This document shows, piece after piece, positions 9,402 through 44,682 of a stretch of DNA of 64,000 nt (the stretch's first letter is position 1; each line of letters starts with the position of its first letter). Below the pieces are notes generated by a model. The model did not search any database. It had not been told where the DNA came from and saw only the letters and a list, made by a program, of their open reading frames with translations. The position numbers and the translations under genes were made by a program. The stretch covers positions 62,001 through 126,000 of the forward strand of contig NZ_CP051151.1 of assembly GCF_013745115.1 (NCBI RefSeq), given 5' to 3'. This DNA is from Hujiaoplasma nucleasis. GTDB lineage: Bacteria > Bacillota_I > Bacilli_A > Izemoplasmatales > Hujiaoplasmataceae.

Positions 9402-9472
<71 letters not shown>

Positions 9473-9475
<3 letters not shown>

Positions 9476-9518
9476 TATTGAAAGCATAGGTTTGATACAA
9501 TTTGTATCAGGCCTTTTT
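9473..9518 (+). repeat. tRNA-flanking direct repeat with terminator hairpin
   Basis: Starting in the tRNA CCA, a block beginning CCATATTGAAAGCATAGG is followed by a GATAC/GTATC hairpin and T run, so it works as the tRNA terminator. The same block recurs at 43010-43020 plus 44501-44538 (split by an IS element) and, diverged, at 33810-33835. It is a candidate attachment or island boundary repeat. Confidence 0.8.
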
Positions 9519-9612: not shown

Positions 9613-9714
9613 GAGATATTTATAATATCTCAAATATTTTGGTAATTAAAAACCAAAAAGTTGTTGACAAAAAATATTTGGGTGTGATACAATTTTGGTA
9701 TAGGAAAACCAAAA
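9613..9714 (+). promoter_or_regulatory. promoter framed by two TTTTGGT-N8-ACCAAAA palindromes
   Basis: TTGACA (9664-9669), an 18-bp spacer and TACAAT (9688-9693) with TGA before the -10 form the promoter. One inverted repeat TTTTGGT-N8-ACCAAAA lies upstream (9637-9658) and a second with the same half-sites and the same 8-bp spacer overlaps the -10 and start region (9693-9714). An additional perfect 8-bp palindrome (GAGATATT/AATATCTC) lies at 9613-9631. The geometry suggests a dimeric repressor or controller protein with cooperative sites. The rest of 9519-9612 shows only a weak hairpin followed by T at about 9561-9586. Confidence 0.7.
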
Positions 9715-9733
9715 AAAACGAGGAGTGAGTGTT

Positions 9734-11470
9734 TTGGAAAATAAAATTAAGCAATTGTTTTGGAATATTAGTAATGTTATAAGAGGGTATCATTCTCAAA
9801 GAGAAATGTTTGATGTTTTTGTATCTGTGTTCTTTCTTTATTATATATCCGATAAGTATAATGCGGATATAAGAAATGTAAAGATTAATAGAGACCATCT
9901 GAAGACCAAAAATATTACAAAAGAAGAACTTGAAGTGCTAGATTATTTTGAATCGTTACCATATTTTAATACCTTTAAAAAGAATGATTTGGATTTGGTG
10001 TTGAACGAGTTATCAAAGTTTGATTCAAATAGTTATATTTATATTATTGAGCAACTACTGGATATTGATCATTTTGAAATCGGTGAGGCTACTACTAATC
10101 TATATTTAACTAAGCTTTCTCAAAGACTATTTGGTGATATTAGAGGTTCTTTCGTAGATTTATGTTCAGGATATGGTACATTTATTCTCAACACATTTAA
10201 CAAAAACGATAGAACTACGAAAATTGATTCATATGAGTTAAATGATAGTAACACCTATATTCAGAAAGCTTTGAGTTTGATAATGGGTATAAACAACAAT
10301 GTACATAGAGCAAATGTTCTTACTGATTTAGGAAATGAAAAATATGATTATGTATTTAGTTCACCTCCTCTAGGGTTAAGAGTCCAAAGACAAATCGTTG
10401 AACAAAGCATTCATAGTTCTGATAGTATCATCAGTAGCTACTTGAGAGCAAACTCCACAGAATGGTTATTCGTCAATAAAGTACTTAGCAGTTTGAAAGA
10501 TACTGGTAGAGCAGTAGTAATAGTATCAAATGGTACACTTTTCAAGACTGTAGATGAAGATATAAGAAAAACAATCATAGAAAACAATATGCTTGAAGGT
10601 GTTATTAATTTATCAAGTGGATTACTTGGAAGACATACAGGTATTGAAGGTAGTTTATTGATTTTTGGAAACAATACGAATAGTTTCATAAAAATGGTTG
10701 ATGCGTCAGAAATATATTCTAAAGAACGTCACAATAAATACTTGAGCGATTTTGATATTGATAAAATCATGAGTTTATATGAGTCAGAAAAATCACATAT
10801 TTCATTAGATTCATTAAGAGAAAATGATTATGTTCTGTTAAAGAAAAGGTATGAATTTGTTGGGGAACTAGATGATTTTATTACTGTTGGAGATATTATA
10901 GAAGATACTTTCAGAGGTATCCAAATTTCTTCAAGGGATTATGAGAAAAAAATAGTAAAAAAAGGTACTGAAGGAAGTATCCAATTGTTATCTCTAGGAA
11001 ATATCTCAGAACACTTTATTGATTCTGACCTAGACACAATCAATCCAGAAGGTATAAGATATCAAAGATATATTCTAGAAGATGGAGATTTTATAATCTC
11101 TGCAAAAGGATCCAAAATCAAAACGTCAGTGTATGATAAATCCATTTTAAAAGGAGTAACAGTTCCACTTGGAAATGTGATGGTGCTTAGAATTGACAAA
11201 GAGAAATACAATCCACATTTTCTGAAAGTATTTCTTAATACACCATTAGGACTTAAATTGTTAGAGAATGCTCAAACAGGATCAACAATAGTTAATCTTA
11301 ATAAAAAGAATCTTCTTGAGCTTAAAATACCAAACATTAAACTAGAAGAACAGAACAGAATTGCAGTAGATTATTTAGTAGCAGTAGATAGTTATTCATA
11401 TGCTTTAAAAGAAGTAGAAAAGAAACAACTAGAATTAGATAGTTTCTTTAAGAACCAAAGTTGGGAGTGA
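9734..11470 (+). CDS. N6-adenine methylase-like protein fused to a Type I specificity domain
   Basis: A fusion of a HsdM-like methyltransferase (about residues 1-365) and one HsdS-like target recognition domain with a C-terminal helix (about 375-578). The SAM motif is DLCSGYGTF near residue 140 and the catalytic motif IV reads SSPPLG near residue 210, where active enzymes have N/D/S-P-P-Y/F/W; Leu in the aromatic position makes activity doubtful. The recognition domain has the usual EDGDFIISAKG and LEEQNRIAVDYLVAVD blocks. GTG 9725 is in frame, but TTG 9734 has GAGGAG at the correct distance. It is followed 4 bp later by a 171-residue gene and then by a separate, canonical hsdMSR operon with its own promoter. 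It may be a one-polypeptide modification enzyme, a decayed paralogue, or part of another defence system. Confidence 0.72.
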   Translation: MENKIKQLFWNISNVIRGYHSQREMFDVFVSVFFLYYISDKYNADIRNVKINRDHLKTKNITKEELEVLDYFESLPYFNTFKKNDLDLVLNELSKFDSNSYIYIIEQLLDIDHFEIGEATTNLYLTKLSQRLFGDIRGSFVDLCSGYGTFILNTFNKNDRTTKIDSYELNDSNTYIQKALSLIMGINNNVHRANVLTDLGNEKYDYVFSSPPLGLRVQRQIVEQSIHSSDSIISSYLRANSTEWLFVNKVLSSLKDTGRAVVIVSNGTLFKTVDEDIRKTIIENNMLEGVINLSSGLLGRHTGIEGSLLIFGNNTNSFIKMVDASEIYSKERHNKYLSDFDIDKIMSLYESEKSHISLDSLRENDYVLLKKRYEFVGELDDFITVGDIIEDTFRGIQISSRDYEKKIVKKGTEGSIQLLSLGNISEHFIDSDLDTINPEGIRYQRYILEDGDFIISAKGSKIKTSVYDKSILKGVTVPLGNVMVLRIDKEKYNPHFLKVFLNTPLGLKLLENAQTGSTIVNLNKKNLLELKIPNIKLEEQNRIAVDYLVAVDSYSYALKEVEKKQLELDSFFKNQSWE

Positions 11471-11474
11471 TGAG

Positions 11475-11990
11475 ATGCTATTAAGTCAGGATGAGTTGGA
11501 CCATGTTAATGAATCGATTAATAATCTTAGATCAAGAATTTTCATTGCTAATCGAACAGAAGATAAAAGTACATTAGATAGCTTGTTAAGTATACTTGGT
11601 ATTTCGTTTGATGAAAAGGAAGTTAGAGACGAATGGAGAATATTCTTATGTGCAGGTACGGATATCTCTAAGGATATAATCAGAAAAGTTCTTAGTGATT
11701 ATAAACTTGAAGATAGAGTAGAACTAGAATTAGATTATAAGAAGATTACGAGTATTAACTTTGATAAATTTAGAGACTCTCAAACATACAAATACATAGT
11801 CTTTGGACAAGGCCCACACAAAGCAAAGGGAATTGGAAAATATGGTAGCATCATTTCTAGGATGCAAAGTGAACCTGAACATTACCCAGAAGTAATTGTA
11901 ATGACCGATTCACAAGATAAACCACATTTATCAGTAAGTGAATTACATAAAGCAATGCAACAAATATTTAATAAAGAAGATATTGAATAA
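11475..11990 (+). CDS. small partner protein of the methylase-specificity fusion, unrecognised
   Basis: A 171-residue protein I do not recognise. The N-terminal 40 residues are helical, the centre alternates strands and helices (IFLCAGTDISKDIIRKVL), and a glycine-rich segment FGQGPHKAKGIGKYGSI precedes EVIVMTD near the end; this could be a small alpha/beta fold, but no catalytic signature is clear. It starts 4 bp after the preceding gene with GGGAG in front and is surely co-transcribed with it. The coupling suggests a dedicated partner such as a regulator or nuclease subunit. There are no membrane segments. Confidence 0.6.
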   Translation: MLLSQDELDHVNESINNLRSRIFIANRTEDKSTLDSLLSILGISFDEKEVRDEWRIFLCAGTDISKDIIRKVLSDYKLEDRVELELDYKKITSINFDKFRDSQTYKYIVFGQGPHKAKGIGKYGSIISRMQSEPEHYPEVIVMTDSQDKPHLSVSELHKAMQQIFNKEDIE

Positions 11991-12073: not shown

Positions 12074-13822
12074 ATGAAATTGAGTAGAAATATAGACGTA
12101 AAAGCAAATATGATTTGGAACATCGCAGACACATTAAGGGATGTTTATAAAAGACATCAATATGGAAGTGTAATTTTACCATTTGTTGTTATAAAAAGAT
12201 TCGATGCAGTATTACAAGATACAAAAGAAAAAGTATATGAAACATATAAACAAGTAAAAGATTTTGATGATCACAAAGTGCTTCTAAAAAGAGCATCAGG
12301 TCATGGATTCTATAACTGTTCAAGATATACTTTAGGCTTAATATTATCTGATGCTGATAATATCGAATCTAACTTTAATGATTATGTAAATGGATTTTCT
12401 GAAGAAGTCCAAGATATATTAAGTAACTTTGAAATGCACAAGTTAATTGAAAAACTTGCATCTAATAATCTATTATACAATGTATTACAAGAAGTGAATA
12501 AAGTCGACCTACATCCTGAAACTGTATCCAATATTGAAATGGGGTATATCTTTGAAGAAACTATTAGAAGATTTAGTGAAGCACAAAATGAAGAAGCTGG
12601 AGAACACTACACTCCTCGTGAAGTTATTGAACTAATGGTCAACATCCTTTTTACTGATGAAGACTTATCGAAAACTACTGAAGCAATTACAAAAACAATT
12701 TATGATCCAGCATGTGGTACGGGAGGAATGCTTACAGTAGCAGAGAAACATTTAAGAAAGCAAAACTCATCATATAATTTAATTAGTTATGGACAAGAAA
12801 TCAATTCTGAAACATATGCTATATGTAAAGCTGATATCTTAATTAAGGGAGAAGATGCAGATTTTATTAGACATGGGAATACATTATCCAATGATAGATT
12901 TAAAGGGTATAATTTTGATTACATAATTTCGAATCCTCCTTTTGGAAAAGATTGGAAATCTGACCAAAAGAAAGTAAAAGAAGAAGAGAAACTTGGAGCA
13001 GCAGGAAGATTCCATATGGGCTTACCTTCAGTAAGTGATGGTCAAATGTTATTCTTACAAACTGCTGTTGCGAAAATGAAAGATAAAAATAAAGGCGGAT
13101 CTCGAGTGGCTATCATTCATAATGGGTCACCATTATTTACAGGGGATGCAGAAAGTGGACCTTCAAAAATTCGTCAATATATTATTGAAAACGACATGCT
13201 CGATACAATTATAGCTTTACCTAACGACATCTTCTACAATACAGGAATCGCAACCTATTTATGGGTTTTATCGAATAAGAAACCAGCACATCGAAAAGGG
13301 AAAGTACAACTTATCAATGCAAATGATATGTTTGAAAAAATGAGAAAATCATTAGGTAAGAAAAACAAAGAAATTACTCCAAAACAAATTGAATATATTT
13401 CAAAGATTTATGGGGAGTTCAAGCCAGGTGAGTTTGAATATAATGGTAATATAATTGAATCTAAAATATTCGATAATCAAGATTTTGGCTACTTGAAAGT
13501 TACTGTGGAAAGACCACTTAAGGATAAAAAAGGTGAACTTATTCTTAAACGTGGTAAAAAACAACCTGACTCAAATCTCAGAGATACAGAAAATATCCCT
13601 TTAAAAGAAGATGTAAAAGAGTATATGGAAAGAGAAGTACTGCCATATGCACCTGATGCATGGATTGATAAAAAGAAAACAAAAGTTGGCTATGAAATTC
13701 CATTTACTAGATACTTTTATAAATATATTCCACCTAGAAAATCAGATGACATCTTCTCGGAAATTAAAGAACTAGAAGACAAAGAACTTCAATTAATGAA
13801 GGAGTTGTTTGGAAATGGCTAG
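12074..13822 (+). CDS. hsdM: Type I restriction-modification methyltransferase subunit HsdM
   Basis: HsdM pairs with HsdS to methylate adenine at the host recognition site and is required for the restriction complex. Visible: the N-terminal helical domain, SAM motif YDPACGTGGM (about residue 210), catalytic SNPPFG (about 285), and the C-terminal VLPYAPDAWID...GYEIPFTRYFYKY block typical of EcoR124-type HsdM. The length of 582 residues is slightly longer than usual. ATG 12074 follows AAGGGGA closely; TTG 12080 is an alternative. The stop overlaps the hsdS start by 8 bp. Confidence 0.93.
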   Translation: MKLSRNIDVKANMIWNIADTLRDVYKRHQYGSVILPFVVIKRFDAVLQDTKEKVYETYKQVKDFDDHKVLLKRASGHGFYNCSRYTLGLILSDADNIESNFNDYVNGFSEEVQDILSNFEMHKLIEKLASNNLLYNVLQEVNKVDLHPETVSNIEMGYIFEETIRRFSEAQNEEAGEHYTPREVIELMVNILFTDEDLSKTTEAITKTIYDPACGTGGMLTVAEKHLRKQNSSYNLISYGQEINSETYAICKADILIKGEDADFIRHGNTLSNDRFKGYNFDYIISNPPFGKDWKSDQKKVKEEEKLGAAGRFHMGLPSVSDGQMLFLQTAVAKMKDKNKGGSRVAIIHNGSPLFTGDAESGPSKIRQYIIENDMLDTIIALPNDIFYNTGIATYLWVLSNKKPAHRKGKVQLINANDMFEKMRKSLGKKNKEITPKQIEYISKIYGEFKPGEFEYNGNIIESKIFDNQDFGYLKVTVERPLKDKKGELILKRGKKQPDSNLRDTENIPLKEDVKEYMEREVLPYAPDAWIDKKKTKVGYEIPFTRYFYKYIPPRKSDDIFSEIKELEDKELQLMKELFGNG

Positions 13823-15002
13823 AGCAAGAATAAAACGCGCTTTAAGTGTTGAATCGTCAAATAGAACTGTCAACTCTACAAGCTATATTGATGAAGGGTT
13901 CCCTCTTTATGGAGCAAGTGGTTATTTAGGAGATATTAACGAGTATGATCAAATAGATAAATACATTTCGATTGTCAAGGATGGTGCAGGTGTAGGTAGG
14001 GTAAATCGCAATCCGGAGAAATCTTCCATTGTAGCAACTATGAATTACCTTTTACCAAAAAGGGGATTTGATTTAAATTTTCTATACTGGGTATTGTCTG
14101 TATTTAACTTTGATTTGTATATAAATGGTTCAACAATACCTCATATATATTTCAAAGATTATTCGAATGAATATTTCGATTTTCCAACGAATAAACATCA
14201 ACAATCAATAGCAAATTTTCTTGATAAAAAAATTGATAAAATCAACGAACTTATTCAAGTTCAAGAAGATGCTATTGTAAAATTTGAGGAATATAAGCAA
14301 CAAGTTATAAGTGAAACCATAAATTTTGGTTTAGAAAAAGATAACCTAGTTGACTCTAAATATGAATGGATCAAAAAAATACCTGCGCATTGGGAAATTG
14401 AAAAAGTTGCTAGAACAACATATTTAAAAGGTCGAATTGGATGGCAAGGACTTAAGAGTACCGAATTTAAAACTGAAGGACCTCACCTTGTTACTGGTAC
14501 TGATTTTAACAATGGATATGTTGACTGGGATAACTGTGTAAGAGTAACAGAGCAAAGATATGAAGAAGCGAAATTTATTCAAGTTCAGGAAGGAGACCTA
14601 TTAATAACAAAAGACGGTACAATTGGAAAAGTTGCAATTGCACAAAACGCTCCTGAAAAAGTATCGGTGAATAGTGGAATTTTTGTAACAAGGCCTTTAC
14701 ATAACGAATATATTAATAAGTACTTTTACTACTTGATGTTATCTAATGTTTTTAAAGAATTCTTTCAATTGACTTTAACAGGTAATAGTACTATTTTACA
14801 TCTTTATCAAGGAGTTTTTTCTCAATTTAGATATCCATTACCACCTAAGGCGGAACAAATAGAGATAGTAAATTACCTAGATAAAAAAACAGAAGAGATA
14901 GAACAATTGATTCAAATTAAGAAAGATAAGATTGAAAAATTAAATGAATATAAAAAGTCATTGATTTATGAAGCTGTGACTGGGAAAATCGAGGTGATGT
15001 AA
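13815..15002 (+). CDS. hsdS: Type I restriction-modification specificity subunit HsdS
   Basis: HsdS determines the bipartite DNA target. Two recognition domains (about residues 5-135 and 195-345) are each followed by a conserved helix (HQQSIANFLDKKIDKINELI and AEQIEIVNYLDKKTEEIEQLI), the arms that set half-site spacing. The first domain is short at its N-terminus and lacks the usual lead-in of about 20 residues. TTG 13809 is in frame but ATG 13815 has AAGGAG upstream. It overlaps hsdM by 8 bp and abuts hsdR exactly, a strongly coupled operon. Confidence 0.93.
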   Translation: MARARIKRALSVESSNRTVNSTSYIDEGFPLYGASGYLGDINEYDQIDKYISIVKDGAGVGRVNRNPEKSSIVATMNYLLPKRGFDLNFLYWVLSVFNFDLYINGSTIPHIYFKDYSNEYFDFPTNKHQQSIANFLDKKIDKINELIQVQEDAIVKFEEYKQQVISETINFGLEKDNLVDSKYEWIKKIPAHWEIEKVARTTYLKGRIGWQGLKSTEFKTEGPHLVTGTDFNNGYVDWDNCVRVTEQRYEEAKFIQVQEGDLLITKDGTIGKVAIAQNAPEKVSVNSGIFVTRPLHNEYINKYFYYLMLSNVFKEFFQLTLTGNSTILHLYQGVFSQFRYPLPPKAEQIEIVNYLDKKTEEIEQLIQIKKDKIEKLNEYKKSLIYEAVTGKIEVM

Positions 15003-18000
15003 ATGAATGAGTATAATGAAAAACGATTAGAAGATACTATAGAAGAATATTTAATCAGTGAAAATGGTGGATACACGAAAAGTACAGATTCTGATTTTAA
15101 TGCAGAGCTGGGATTAGACACTGAGAAATTACTTGCTTTCATAAAAACATCACAAGAATTTGAGTGGGATAAGTTTGCTAACAAATTTAAAAATAATCCT
15201 GAAAAGAATTTCCTATTAAAGATGGATGAGGCAATTAAAAAACAAGGGATACTAAAGGTTTTGCGATCAGGATTTAAAACAAGAGGAATCAAGTTTAGAA
15301 TGGTTTATTTTAAACCTGTTTCTTCATTAAATGATATCGATAGAATCAACTACTCAAAAAACATATGTAATGTTGTTAGACAATTACATTATCAAGTGAA
15401 AGGTAATAATTCACTTGATATGGTTCTTATGGTAAATGGGATACCACTTGTAACGATGGAATTAAAGAACCAATTTACAGGACAGAATGTAGAAAATGCA
15501 AAACATCAATACAGGTATGATAGAGATCCTAATGAGGCAATTTTTAAATATAAATACCGTTCATTAGTTCATTTTGCTGTTGATGTTAAAGAAGTATATA
15601 TGACGACTAGACTTCAAAAAGAAAATACATTCTTCCTACCTTTTAATCAAGGAACTAATGGTTCTGGTAATGTTGGTGGTAAAGGAAATCCTGTAAATAT
15701 CAATGGATTTGACACAGCTTATTTATGGGAAAAAGTATTGCAAAAAGATAGTTTGCTAAACATTATCCATAAGTATATGCATGTCGAGGAAGTTGAGAAA
15801 ACCGATAGAAAAGGAAACCAAATTAAGAAAGATATTGTTATTTTCCCTAGATATCATCAACTAGATGTAGTAACAAAACTGATTGATGATGTGAAACAAA
15901 AAGGTTCAGGAGATAACTATCTAATCCAGCATAGTGCTGGTAGTGGTAAATCCAATTCTATTGCTTGGTTGGCTTATCGATTGGCAGGATTGCATAACGA
16001 TAATAATGAGCCAATCTTTAACTCAATCATAGTTGTCACAGATAGAAGAGTTTTAGATTCTCAATTGCAAGATACTATTTATCAATTTGATCATATGGAT
16101 GGTTTAGTTGAAAAGATTGATGAAAAGAAAACGTCTCAACATTTAAAAGAAGCGATAAATGATAATAAAAAAATCATTATATCTACTATCCAAAAATTCC
16201 CTGTAGTATATAAAGAGATTAATGGAAGCAATAAAACATTTGCAGTCATCGTAGATGAAGCACATTCATCTCAAACTGGCGAAGATGCTAGAAAATTAAA
16301 GGAAGCTCTAGCTGATAAAGAAGCGCTACTAGAAGAATATGCTAGACTAGAAGGATTGGATGAAGAACAAAGAGACTTAGAAGAAGATAAAGTGGTTCAA
16401 GAGTTGATTTCACATGGAAAACATACGAACCTATCCTTCTTTGCATTTACAGCTACACCAAAAGTAAAAACACTTCAATTATTTGGACATAGATTAAATG
16501 ATGGCACATATAGACCTTTCCATATTTATTCAATGAGACAAGCAATTGAAGAAGGATTTATATTAGACGTGCTGCAAAACTATATGACTTATAATACGTA
16601 CTATCAAATCGCCAAGAAAATAGAAGATGATCCAACATTAGATGCATCACGTGCAGCTTCAGCAGTTGCAAAATTCCAATCATTACACCCTCATAACATT
16701 TCTCAAAAAGTTAAAATAATTGTAGAACATTTTGATACAATAACTAGACACAAAATTAATGGTAAAGCCAAAGCTATGATTGTTACTGCAAGTAGATTAC
16801 ATGCAGTTAGATATTATCAAGCTTTAGTGAAATATATTAAAGAAAATGACTATAAACACTTAGATGTTCTAGTGGCATTTAGTGGAACAGTCAACGATGA
16901 TGGAATAGAGCATACTGAAGTTAGTTTAAATAAACTCAATCAATATGGTTATCATATTAAAGAGAGTCAACTGCCAGAGTACTTTGAAAGTGAAGACTTT
17001 AATATGCTTGTTGTTGCCGAAAAATATCAAACTGGATTTGATCAGCCATTACTACACACAATGTACGTAGATAAAAAACTAAGTGGTGTAAAAGCTGTTC
17101 AAACACTTAGTAGATTAAATAGAACAACAAAAGGTAAAGAGGATACTTTTGTACTAGACTTCGTAAATGATGCAGAAGATATTCAAAAATCATTCCAGCC
17201 ATACTATGAAGCAACCATTTTAGAAAACGGTACTGATCCAGATATCTTATATAATTTAAAATCAGACCTTGATGACTATAAGATGTATTTGTCTCATGAA
17301 GTACATGAATTTGCAAAAGTGTATTATTCTACTTCGGATGAACTTAAAAATATGGGTCGATTAACTAATCATTTACAACCGGCAATTGAAAGATACAATG
17401 AAAGAGAACCTGAAGAACAAAATCAGTTCAAAGCAGACTTACAATCTTTCAATCGTTTATATGCCTTCATAATTCAAGTTGATAGAATGTTTGATAAGGA
17501 GCTTCAAGAATTTTATGTGTACGCTAGAATGTTACAAAAAATCTTACCAAAAGGAGATATTGGTAAGATAGAATTAGATGATAAACTAGTTTTAGAATAC
17601 TATAAAATTGAAAAGAGCTTTACTGGTTCTATTGAATTAGAAAAAACAGAAGGTATGGTTTCTGCAATTAAAGGTGGTAGTGGAGGTAAAGAACAGAAGA
17701 AAGATCCATTGTCAGTTATCATCGAGAAATTTAATGAACGATTTGGTACAGAATGGTCTGAAGCAGATAAAGTATTAATGCAGCTTGAGTCTAGGTTGCT
17801 AAAAAGTGATCAATTACTTGGGTTAGGTAAATCACCTGATAGAAAAACGTTTGATGATATTTATGAACGTGAAGCAGAAAATGTTATTGCTGATCAATAC
17901 TTTGAGAATGCTGAAATATTTAGTTATTTAATGCGAAACCCAGATGCGAAGCAATACTTGATAGCAGAAATGAAAGAAAAAGTATATCACGCTATTACTA

Positions 18001-18008
18001 AAAGATAG
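15003..18008 (+). CDS. hsdR: Type I restriction-modification endonuclease/translocase subunit HsdR
   Basis: HsdR translocates unmodified DNA and cuts it at a distance. Visible in 1001 residues: N-terminal PD-(D/E)XK nuclease with DMVLMVNGIPLVTMELKN (about 137-154), Walker A HSAGSGKSNS (about 310), DEAHSSQ box (about 420), motif III FTATPK and motif VI TLSRLNRT, then a helical C-terminus that docks on HsdM. Size and motifs match the EcoR124-type subunit. It follows hsdS without a gap. The system looks complete and intact. Confidence 0.95.
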   Translation: MNEYNEKRLEDTIEEYLISENGGYTKSTDSDFNAELGLDTEKLLAFIKTSQEFEWDKFANKFKNNPEKNFLLKMDEAIKKQGILKVLRSGFKTRGIKFRMVYFKPVSSLNDIDRINYSKNICNVVRQLHYQVKGNNSLDMVLMVNGIPLVTMELKNQFTGQNVENAKHQYRYDRDPNEAIFKYKYRSLVHFAVDVKEVYMTTRLQKENTFFLPFNQGTNGSGNVGGKGNPVNINGFDTAYLWEKVLQKDSLLNIIHKYMHVEEVEKTDRKGNQIKKDIVIFPRYHQLDVVTKLIDDVKQKGSGDNYLIQHSAGSGKSNSIAWLAYRLAGLHNDNNEPIFNSIIVVTDRRVLDSQLQDTIYQFDHMDGLVEKIDEKKTSQHLKEAINDNKKIIISTIQKFPVVYKEINGSNKTFAVIVDEAHSSQTGEDARKLKEALADKEALLEEYARLEGLDEEQRDLEEDKVVQELISHGKHTNLSFFAFTATPKVKTLQLFGHRLNDGTYRPFHIYSMRQAIEEGFILDVLQNYMTYNTYYQIAKKIEDDPTLDASRAASAVAKFQSLHPHNISQKVKIIVEHFDTITRHKINGKAKAMIVTASRLHAVRYYQALVKYIKENDYKHLDVLVAFSGTVNDDGIEHTEVSLNKLNQYGYHIKESQLPEYFESEDFNMLVVAEKYQTGFDQPLLHTMYVDKKLSGVKAVQTLSRLNRTTKGKEDTFVLDFVNDAEDIQKSFQPYYEATILENGTDPDILYNLKSDLDDYKMYLSHEVHEFAKVYYSTSDELKNMGRLTNHLQPAIERYNEREPEEQNQFKADLQSFNRLYAFIIQVDRMFDKELQEFYVYARMLQKILPKGDIGKIELDDKLVLEYYKIEKSFTGSIELEKTEGMVSAIKGGSGGKEQKKDPLSVIIEKFNERFGTEWSEADKVLMQLESRLLKSDQLLGLGKSPDRKTFDDIYEREAENVIADQYFENAEIFSYLMRNPDAKQYLIAEMKEKVYHAITKR

Positions 18009-20885: not shown

Positions 20886-22196
20886 ATGAAAAGAACTATA
20901 ACCAAAATAGAAGCGAAACCTAGATTGGTATCTAAAACTAAAGTAGCTGCTTATGCTAGAGTATCTACTGGTAAAGATGCTATGCTTCATTCATTAGCTT
21001 CACAAGTGAGTCATTATAAGAAACTTATCCAAGATAATAACGATTGGGAGTTTGCTGGTGTTTATGCGGATGAAGCATATACTGGAACCAAAGAATCTAG
21101 AACAGAGTTTCAACAATTAATCAAAGACTGCAAAACAGGTAAAATCGATATGATCATTACTAAATCAATATCTAGATTTGCTCGTAACACTGTAACACTA
21201 CTTAAAACAGTTAGAGAACTAAAATCAATTGATGTAGATGTATTCTTTGAAGAACAGAATATCCATTCCATTAGTAGTGAAGGTGAAATGATTCTTACCT
21301 TATTAGCTTCTGTAGCTCAAGAAGAATCTAGAAGTGTATCAGATAATATGAAATGGAGAATCAAAAGAGAATTTGAAAATGGTGTGATGTGGGGAGGTAA
21401 ATCTTCGCTAGGATATAAGTTAGTAGATAAGAAGTTAATCATTGTTCCTGAAGAAGCAGAGATTGTGAAACTAATCTTTCAACTTTATATCGATGGACAT
21501 GGTGCAGATTCCATAAGAAAGATACTAGATTCAAAAGGTATCAAACCAATGTATACAAAAACATGGGGACATTCATCCATTATGAAAATCTTGAAGAATC
21601 GAAACTACACAGGTGATCTAATACTTCAAAAGACATACGTAGAAAACCATTTAACAAAAAAGCAAAAGATGAATAAGGGTGAACTAAATAAGTATCTTAT
21701 CACAGATAACCATGATGCAATTATCAGTAAAGAGACTTTTGAAAAAGCACAAGCAATTAGAACACAACGAGCTAGTAAAAATAAATCTCATGCTCCTAGA
21801 CAACAATATCCATTTAAAGGGATTACAAAATGTGGTATCTGTGGCAGTTCCTATACAAGAAAAAGAATGAGAGATAAACTAGTATGGGTATGTTCCTTAT
21901 CAGCAAGACAAGGGCAAGAAGTATGTAATGCTAAACTAGTCCCTGATAACATAATCGTTGAAGCGTCTAATCACATTTTAGGTATGGACCAATATGATGA
22001 CACCTATTTTAAATCAAAGGTAAAGACGATAATCGTTAAGCCTAATAGACTATTAGAGTTTCATATGAAAGATGGTACGATTATCAATTATCATTGGGAA
22101 CATCCATCAAGAAGTAAAAGCTGGACACCAGATATGAAAGAGAAAGCTAGACAAAGATCATTACTGCAACATCAAGGAGGTAAGCAAAATGCCTAA
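20886..22196 (+). CDS. large serine recombinase A
   Basis: Site-specific recombinase of the resolvase/invertase superfamily, large-serine type, which integrates or excises DNA between att sites. Visible in 436 residues: catalytic N-terminal domain with YARVSTGKD (nucleophile Ser near 27) and ITKSISRFARN, recombinase domain (about 170-260), and a zinc ribbon CGICG ... VCS...C (about 314-350). The strong ribosome site is AAAGGAGG. It overlaps the second recombinase gene by 8 bp, so the two are translated together and may act as a pair, as CcrA/CcrB do in SCC elements. Confidence 0.92.
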   Translation: MKRTITKIEAKPRLVSKTKVAAYARVSTGKDAMLHSLASQVSHYKKLIQDNNDWEFAGVYADEAYTGTKESRTEFQQLIKDCKTGKIDMIITKSISRFARNTVTLLKTVRELKSIDVDVFFEEQNIHSISSEGEMILTLLASVAQEESRSVSDNMKWRIKREFENGVMWGGKSSLGYKLVDKKLIIVPEEAEIVKLIFQLYIDGHGADSIRKILDSKGIKPMYTKTWGHSSIMKILKNRNYTGDLILQKTYVENHLTKKQKMNKGELNKYLITDNHDAIISKETFEKAQAIRTQRASKNKSHAPRQQYPFKGITKCGICGSSYTRKRMRDKLVWVCSLSARQGQEVCNAKLVPDNIIVEASNHILGMDQYDDTYFKSKVKTIIVKPNRLLEFHMKDGTIINYHWEHPSRSKSWTPDMKEKARQRSLLQHQGGKQNA

Positions 22197-23772
22197 AGTC
22201 ACTGTAATACCATCAACGATAAATCCTATTACACAAATGCCTATACATGAGAATCATGTTAAGAAAGTAGTAGCATACGCAAGGGTTTCAACAAATAGTG
22301 ATGAGCAGTACACGAGTTACGAAGCACAAGTGAACTTCTATAAAAAACACATTCAAGAAAAACCTGACTGGGAGTATACCGGAGTATATGCTGATGAAGG
22401 ACTATCCGGAACAACAACTAAAAAGCGTACTGAGTTTAACCGAATGATTAAGGATGCGCTAAACGGTAAAATCAATCTGATCATCACTAAATCAATATCA
22501 CGATTTGCTAGAAACACTCTAGATACAATCTCATATGTGCGTAAACTTAAAGCAAAAGGTATTGAAGTCTTCTTTGAGAAGGAAAACTTATGGACACTTG
22601 ATTCAAAGAGCGAACTTATCTTAACCATTATGGCATCAATAGCCCAAGAGGAATCACGCTCCATTAGTCAAAACGTAACTTGGGGTAAACGAGTCGGTTT
22701 CCAGGAAGGTAAAGTATCGTTTGCTTATAAAAGATTTCTCGGATACAAGAAAGAAGATGACAAGATTGTTATTGACGAAGACCAAGCTAATGTGGTTAGG
22801 TTAATATATAGGATGTTTCTTGTTGAAGGTAAAACACCAACAGGAATAGCAAGAAATCTCAAATTGCAACACATAAAAACGCCAAGTGGAAAATCTACAA
22901 ACTGGACCAAGAACACAGTAACATCGATACTAACAAATGAGAAGTACAAAGGTGATGCGTTGCTTCAAAAGACTTATACAGTAAATTACTTAGAACATAC
23001 CAAAGCAGTTAATACTGGACAAATACCGCAGTACTATGTAGAAAACAATCATCCTGCTATTATCGATAGAGATACATGGGAACAAGTTCAAATTGAAATG
23101 AAAAGACGAGACAAACTTGGTGTACACTATTCATCATCTGATGTCTTTGCATCCAAACTAATATGTGAAGATTGTGGTGGATTCTATGGTAAAAAGAAAT
23201 GGCATACGAATACCAAGTACGAACGATTTGTATACCAATGCAATAGCAAGTTCCACAAAGGTAAAGATAAATGCAAAACACCACATCTAAAAGAAGAGTA
23301 TATTAAACAGAAGTTTATCCAGTCCTACAATATCATGATGGAAGAAAAGGAGAGAATCATTCAGGATGTTAAGGATATAATTAAATTATTAAATGACACT
23401 AAGGATATTGAATCAGAAATAGCAAAACTAGACTACGAACTTGAAATAGTATCTAAACACGCAAATAAACTAGTAAAAGAAAACTCGAAAACTGGAATTA
23501 GCTTTGAATATTATAATAGGAAATATAAAGACATCCAAAACCGATATGAAGAACTCAAAATTAAGCGTGATGACTTGATTAATACAAAGATGAATAAGGA
23601 AAATCAAGCAATTAAGATGAGAACATACTTAAACAACATAATTCAATCAGAAGATGAACTAATGCAATGGAATGAAAGTGTATGGATGCTTATGGTGGAA
23701 AGCGCAGTTGTGCACAGAGATTCAAGTATTACATTTAGATATAAAAATAGCGAAGAAATAGAAGTTCGATAA
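22189..23772 (+). CDS. large serine recombinase B
   Basis: Second large serine recombinase, 527 residues. Catalytic domain with YARVSTNSDEQ and TKSISRFARN, recombinase domain, zinc ribbon CEDCGGFYGKKK ... QC...C (about 323-360), then a long coiled-coil (about 370-470) that controls synapsis and directionality in this family. It starts inside the end of recombinase A. The two share architecture but are divergent, so both are probably functional rather than a recent duplication. Their att sites are not evident; the direct repeats at 23784 and 23892 just downstream are one candidate place to look. Confidence 0.92.
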   Translation: MPKVTVIPSTINPITQMPIHENHVKKVVAYARVSTNSDEQYTSYEAQVNFYKKHIQEKPDWEYTGVYADEGLSGTTTKKRTEFNRMIKDALNGKINLIITKSISRFARNTLDTISYVRKLKAKGIEVFFEKENLWTLDSKSELILTIMASIAQEESRSISQNVTWGKRVGFQEGKVSFAYKRFLGYKKEDDKIVIDEDQANVVRLIYRMFLVEGKTPTGIARNLKLQHIKTPSGKSTNWTKNTVTSILTNEKYKGDALLQKTYTVNYLEHTKAVNTGQIPQYYVENNHPAIIDRDTWEQVQIEMKRRDKLGVHYSSSDVFASKLICEDCGGFYGKKKWHTNTKYERFVYQCNSKFHKGKDKCKTPHLKEEYIKQKFIQSYNIMMEEKERIIQDVKDIIKLLNDTKDIESEIAKLDYELEIVSKHANKLVKENSKTGISFEYYNRKYKDIQNRYEELKIKRDDLINTKMNKENQAIKMRTYLNNIIQSEDELMQWNESVWMLMVESAVVHRDSSITFRYKNSEEIEVR

Positions 23773-44500: not shown

Positions 44501-44538
44501 AAAGCATAGGTTTGATACAATTGTATCAGGCCTTTTTT
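44501..44538 (+). repeat. right part of the tRNA-type direct repeat, cut by the IS
   Basis: AAAGCATAGGTTTGATAC, an AATT loop and GTATCAGGCC with six T match 9481-9518 almost exactly (one base shorter in the loop). It works as a terminator and is the candidate right border repeat of the tRNA-Gly island. Confidence 0.8.
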
Positions 44539-44633
44539 GCGCTATATAGGGCCGTTTCTCTATTTGTTCATATTTGTCGTGCATAAAAAGTACATTGATT
44601 TTACTGAAATTTAGATATTTCAATAGAATTTCT

Positions 44634-44682
44634 ACACGATTACATTTTGAAATACACGATTAAAAATGGATTTACACGATTA
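44634..44682. repeat. three ACACGATTA iterons with 20-bp period
   Basis: ACACGATTA at 44634-44642, 44654-44662 and 44674-44682, exactly 20 bp apart, i.e. about two helical turns. One more copy is at 40040. These are probable protein-binding iterons. Confidence 0.6.

Follow-up and report, generated by a model that had tools for sequence, protein, structure and literature searches.

Several kinds of proteins are known to regulate restriction-modification (R-M) genes. RptR, a repressor found in type I R-M islands, binds DNA as a small homodimer; its gene opens the island, and it represses its own promoter via repeated palindromic sites of the fixed sequence TAGCTA (PMC12255303). The C proteins, to which HsdC of the Mollicutes type I operons belongs (PMC5282649), are tiny autoregulatory helix-turn-helix (HTH) proteins that are encoded upstream of hsdMSR and use repeated promoter operators. 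In the dual-function repressors Ecl18kI, SsoII and EcoRII (PMC12707154), the regulator of the R-M genes is a methyltransferase polypeptide in which a repressor domain is fused to an active type II enzyme. Here we describe a locus from a 64,000-nucleotide stretch of the Hujiaoplasma nucleasis genome (NZ_CP051151.1, positions 62,001 to 126,000; hereafter the window), in which a type I R-M operon is preceded by genes for an HsdM-HsdS fusion (FUS) and a 171-residue protein (SMALL). Comparative analysis suggests that FUS is probably a type I methyltransferase turned autoregulator of the R-M operon, with SMALL as its co-regulator.

Like RptR, FUS is encoded at the head of a type I R-M island and is proposed to repress its own promoter via repeated palindromes; however, it is a 581-residue protein with a methylase fold, whose sites (TTTGGT-N8-ACCAAA, GGTTAT- or ACGTTT-type) change with its target recognition domain (TRD), a separation from RptR that is drawn by motif and size only. 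Its position upstream of hsdMSR and the repeated operators recall the C proteins, but a Pfam scan of FUS gave no match to an HTH, the protein having a methylase fold instead. Whereas the dual-function repressors combine a repressor domain with an active enzyme, FUS has only the methyltransferase fold, lacking the catalytic motif, and a TRD, which is the proposed DNA reader. With type I HsdM and HsdS, and in particular with the single-TRD enzyme EcoR124INT (PMC3320862), it shares the M fold, the TRD and a palindromic bipartite site, but differs in being a covalent M-S fusion devoid of the catalytic motif with a site private to its own promoter. The closest solved relative of its TRD is ‘Esub1’ of PDB 8vsq/8vsr (E=6e-18; TRD only), whose nearest plasmid relatives are mostly ‘N-6 DNA methylase’ fusions of the FUS kind; searches of the available literature for ‘Esub1’, for SPPL fusions and for a fourth type I gene found nothing. 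RptR, the C proteins and the dual-function repressors are functionally the closest systems, and none of them is a type I M-S protein that has lost catalysis and reads DNA with its TRD. FUS-SMALL most likely constitutes a new class of autoregulator within the known kind of R-M controllers.

The decisive feature is a pair of palindromes lying outside positions 9734-11990, the segment covered by a preliminary description of the locus, which did not remark on them. The FUS promoter in the window is bracketed by two copies of the bipartite palindrome TTTGGT-N8-ACCAAA, placed around the -35 and -10 boxes (operators O1 and O2). The 1.81-Mb genome contains only two exact copies of the motif, both at this promoter. 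Likewise, both genomic copies of the corresponding motif are at the FUS promoter in genomes G067 and G139, as are two of three in G198. In a blind test for twin palindromes the window scored 28/28, against a maximum of 24 in 100 dinucleotide shuffles and with none of 150 control gene starts reaching 28; nine FUS-SMALL loci are distinguished from control gene starts by the same score (Mann-Whitney p=1.3e-5). Related FUS promoters also carry twin palindromes around -35/-10, in most loci with O1 directly upstream of the -35 and O2 over or after the -10, at spacings of 40 to 141 bp. The sequence of the operator varies between loci: L061 has the same one as the window; L049, L050 and L064 have ACGTTT-N4-AAACTT or close variants; L059 and L048 have AGGTTAT..AACCT, L009 TGGTTAT..AACCA, L060 TGATTAT..ATAACCA, L062 CGGATAT..ATCCA and L007 TTAGTATT-N3-AATACTAA. 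Three loci found later carry TGGTTAT-N2-ATAACCA (L086; two copies, 28/28), ACGTTT-N4-AAACTT (L087) and AGGATAT-N2-ATATCCT (L085; two copies, 28/28). The twin palindromes at the gene's own promoter, which covary with the TRD of its product, may be autoregulatory operators comparable to those of the C proteins.

We propose that a type I methyltransferase half-complex has been turned into the transcription factor of its own operon. Two FUS copies would pair to mimic an M2S complex, with their two identical TRDs reading a palindromic bipartite site; the site of EcoR124INT, GAA-N7-TTC (PMC3320862), is of the form predicted for a FUS dimer. Bound to O1 and O2, and to O2 above all, the dimer would block RNA polymerase, placing FUS and SMALL under negative feedback that read-through would extend to hsdMSR. 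The preliminary description had assigned separate promoters to the fusion and to hsdM. That of the fusion is strong, but upstream of hsdM no more than a weak extended -10 could be read by eye (TGTTATAAT, ending at ~12034), and no terminator was found between SMALL and hsdM in the window. In the SMALL-less loci L006, L007 and L066, hsdM begins 1-14 bp past FUS. The regulator is probably a repressor, as O2 overlaps or follows the -10 and is the copy kept where only one is clear (L058 and L051). The type II C proteins are activators at low and repressors at high concentration (PMC12255303), and FUS could follow the same logic, with O1 beside the -35 activating at low dose and O2 repressing at high dose, such that restriction is delayed in a new host. 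The placement of the two sites in most loci would suit this, but we regard it as rather doubtful: the -35 and -10 boxes are already good and leave no obvious need for activation, only the downstream site seems to be retained in L058 and L051, and the O1-O2 spacing is variable.

Several comparisons point to the TRD of FUS as the reader of these sites. TRD identity is 38.5% within operator groups against 28.6% between them (3 of 20000 permutations); we assigned the groups from the sequences ahead of the permutation, with the locus known. The closest TRD to that of the window (40%) belongs to L061, which has the identical operator, while the methyltransferase domain is slightly closer to that of L049. 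Operators of the three later-found loci were largely as expected from their TRD neighbors: the TRD of L086 is nearest to that of L009 and that of L087 to those of L049/L050 (66%), with operators of the same groups. Between L049 and L050, residues 471-559 of FUS are 100% identical and the operators are unchanged, whereas the HsdS proteins are only 35% identical. As these near-identical loci keep the FUS TRD and the operators while HsdS has been swapped, HsdS is unlikely to read the site, and the same comparison argues against methylation sensing at the operators by HsdMS, which we had considered as a candidate. An operator that belongs to SMALL or an unlinked regulator, with FUS acting otherwise, for example as a competitor of HsdMS or a modulator of HsdR, is an unlikely alternative. 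FUS could form mixed complexes with HsdM or HsdR, and the FUS-SMALL pair strictly adjoins the hsd genes, but the operator groups track the FUS TRD and no further regulator gene stood out as common to the loci, although no systematic search for one was made. Moreover, operators of the same type occur in loci without SMALL (L048, L009 and L007); hence, SMALL is not the sole reader and FUS is the likely one.

A number of observations weigh against FUS as the operator-binding regulator of the whole system. The correlation between TRD and operator may partly reflect shared ancestry, and the half-site of L085 is one base off that of its nearest TRD relative, L059. A single clear site, seemingly the downstream one, is present in L058 and L051; the palindromes of L063 and L087 were recognized by motif and fall short of significance in the blind scoring; and no palindrome pair was found in L044, L046, L053-L057 and L065. 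No operator copy upstream of hsdM was detected in any of the six gaps tested. With none seen there and a possible weak hsdM promoter in the window, control of hsdMSR by FUS would rest on read-through.

Turning to the protein itself, Pfam identifies an N6_Mtase domain (E=8e-28, residues 104-379) and a single Methylase_S domain (E=6e-6, residues 446-570), hence one TRD, in agreement with the HsdM-like and HsdS-like parts previously read from the sequence. An HsdS has two TRDs per chain and an asymmetric site, whereas FUS has one such domain and its associated site is palindromic. The AlphaFold model (predicted local distance difference test, pLDDT, of 80) has a type I M-like fold, the TRD and a long C-terminal helix, and its best Foldseek matches are type I M subunits, PacII M1M2S and CamA. 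Motif I (DLCSGYGTF, residues 145-153) retains the DxxxGxG of S-adenosylmethionine (SAM) binding. Motif IV reads SPPL (residues 213-216), in which not only does Leu replace the aromatic residue, as had been noted before, but Ser also replaces Asn/Asp. An intact [N/D]PP[F/Y/W] is found in none of the 18 fusions of the main alignment, whereas each of the 19 neighboring HsdM proteins carries NPPF or NPPY; the motif is also degenerate in additional plasmid fusions and in the L054-L057 members. Among the fusions it varies freely, as SPPL, HFPF, HMPF, DPPA, YPPL, FIPL, EVPF and DFSR. The GxG of motif I is present in 13 of the 18 aligned fusions, and SAM binding may therefore persist. Judged by these motifs, FUS is not a methylase, the catalytic motif having been lost across the family, and the earlier suggestions of a DNA-recognizing but non-methylating module and of a regulatory system accord with the TRD that matches the twin operators and with the conservation of SMALL alongside FUS. 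SPP-type versions of motif IV occur in N4-methylcytosine (m4C) enzymes, and most members keep motif I; in addition, non-canonical type I enzymes of the N6-methyladenine (m6A)/m4C kind exist (PMC9613975). On such a reading FUS would still be active, as a second methyltransferase whose motif IV is unusual and whose target is its own palindrome, either throughout the genome or at the promoter. This is very unlikely, as the free variation of motif IV fits a loss rather than a new catalytic rule and the site is present only twice in the genome.

Among other relatives of FUS, those in L053 (1298-2971) and L065 (6607-8295), from two genomes of a single genus, lack motif I too and have no hsd genes nearby; both precede an S4/pseudouridine-synthase gene, and their TRDs are 66% identical to each other. 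L054-L057 have shorter relatives of 526-547 residues in loci with two consecutive hsdM genes.

We searched for the FUS-SMALL pair in genomes of the window's class and further genome contigs, and in plasmids by tblastn. FUS, directly followed by SMALL and then by hsd genes, occurs in 13 loci from several Bacillota families with unrelated type I subtypes: the window, L049, L050, L043/L061 (Inordinaticella fortuita), L045/L058 (an Acholeplasmataceae metagenome-assembled genome), L047/L062 (Sharpea porci), L059 (Aminicella lysinilytica), L060 (Dolosicoccus paucivorans), L063, L064, L085, L086 and L087. In the class survey, full-length SMALL lies directly behind FUS in 6/6 cases, the remaining matches being a fragment or SMALL-like domains within larger proteins, and in several loci the two genes share 1-8 bases. 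The co-occurrence that the preliminary description had proposed to examine is thus conserved across these 13 loci. The genes past SMALL are mostly ordered hsdM-hsdS-hsdR, as in the complete operon already recognized in the window, with hsdR-hsdM-hsdS in L063; in L087 the HsdR profile used did not match the large gene that follows hsdS. The FUS of the window is nearest to that of L043, and the HsdM of the latter is of a very different type, which suggests that the FUS-SMALL module moves between type I systems. In Salimicrobium, Lactobacillus and Lactococcus, plasmid-encoded FUS relatives lie 5' of hsd genes, and further ones occur in Paenibacillus and Subdoligranulum; SMALL was not found in plasmids. 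Viral contigs contained no SMALL and no window-type fusion, and phage matches to FUS were nearly all methyltransferase-only. That FUS is a decaying, functionless duplicate of hsdM-hsdS, as its missing catalytic residues might imply, is scarcely credible given the purifying selection on both genes (dN/dS between L049 and L050 of 0.14 for FUS and 0.10 for SMALL), the intact reading frames in distant families and the order retained in 13 loci. A distinct defense system, the other earlier suggestion, is not supported, as the pair invariably adjoined hsd genes and did not occur alone in the sequences searched. The MADS defense system was rejected as a candidate (NCBIfam MAD5 at 45 bits versus a cut-off of 400, MAD2 at 23 versus 720).

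In two of the loci, L059 (10290-13919) and L086 (10054-13497), oppositely oriented hsdS pieces flank a gene of 326-329 residues, an arrangement resembling invertible (phase-variable) specificity cassettes.

SMALL, already described as unrecognized, has no significant match in Pfam, PADLOC, NCBIfam or PDB sequences. Its structural model, a check put forward in the preliminary description, combines an N-terminal helical hairpin with a flavodoxin/CheY-like alpha/beta domain (pLDDT 84), for which Foldseek returns only weak CheY/flavodoxin-like matches (best E=0.007). A loop of the GPxPHSxxGxxxxSS type is conserved (GQGPHKAKGIGKYGS in the window). SMALL probably binds FUS and serves as its co-regulator or sensor. 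It is conceivable, if rather improbable, that the methylase scaffold has been kept for sensing: a pseudo-M2S on the operators would respond to Ocr/ArdA-type phage DNA mimics or to falling SAM by releasing the promoter, such that an attack on restriction itself raises restriction, with SMALL tuning or transmitting the signal. A kinship of SMALL with DUF2325, prompted by a DUF2325 gene upstream of the Salimicrobium fusion and a similar look, was rejected (hhalign probability 0.9% with the Salimicrobium DUF2325 protein, no Pfam match).

SMALL-like domains also terminate proteins of 340-350 residues in L070 (1029-3348, minus) and L071 (7482-9727, minus), each beside a second gene; that of L070 encodes a UvrD/Schlafen-group-3-like helicase. 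These pairs may form another defense or repair module. In plasmid relatives, other small genes lie 5' of the fusion (L005 4250-4573, L006 4134-4664 and L008 4005-4481), namely DUF2325 and two others of 176 and 158 residues, with palindromes near their promoters.

If the proposed role of FUS is correct, the recognition machinery of a restriction enzyme now serves as a transcription factor, and exchange of the TRD can change its operator. With a recognition site independent of HsdS, the switch would outlast any exchange or phase variation of the restriction specificity, which would explain the constant control of such systems. The predictive link from TRD to operator sequence would also bear on the old problem of type I TRD specificity by supplying natural half-site data. 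Many ‘N-6 DNA methylase’ genes ahead of hsdMSR may likewise be regulators and should then not be counted as methylases.

The features of the locus are collected in the table. The fusion open reading frame (ORF; 9725-11470) opens with GTG; the TTG is the likelier start, with a ribosome-binding site (RBS) GAGGAG at 9720-9725 and a fit to the N-terminus MEN/MEQ of relatives.

Table. Predicted features of the FUS-SMALL-hsd locus (window positions)
Feature	Position	Strand	Remarks
Operator O1 (predicted)	9637..9658	.	TTTTGGTAATTAAAAACCAAAA; just upstream of -35; perfect 7-bp arms
Fusion promoter	9664..9693	+	strong; TTGACA-18-TACAAT
-35 box	9664..9669	+	TTGACA; by consensus match only
-10 box	9688..9693	+	TACAAT; preceded by TG; 18-bp spacer; by consensus match only
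Operator O2 (predicted)	9693..9714	.	TTTTGGTATAGGAAAACCAAAA; abuts -10, covers expected transcription start; twin score 28/28 with O1
M-S fusion FUS (proposed pseudo-methylase regulator)	9734..11470	+	TTG start, ORF from GTG 9725; motif I kept, motif IV lost, one TRD, C-terminal helix
Small partner SMALL	11475..11990	+	171 residues; begins 4 bp past fusion end
hsdM	12074..13822	+	canonical NPPF; ORF opens with TTG 12038, RBS favors ATG 12074
hsdS	13809..15002	+	follows hsdM
hsdR	15003..18008	+	follows hsdS

The hsdS ORF of the window apparently lacks ~40 N-terminal residues relative to Specificity_I models. The fusion is preceded by a tRNA-Gly (9402-9475) and its terminator, and the entire fusion/hsd system is contained in a ~35-kb island (9481-44537) whose ends are a near-identical direct repeat of ~37 bp comprising the tRNA-Gly terminator (9481-9518 and 44501-44537). 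The island encodes two serine recombinases (20886-22196 and 22189-23772) and is missing from the same-genus genome G001, in which the tRNA runs straight into sequence resembling positions 44512-44676 of the window.
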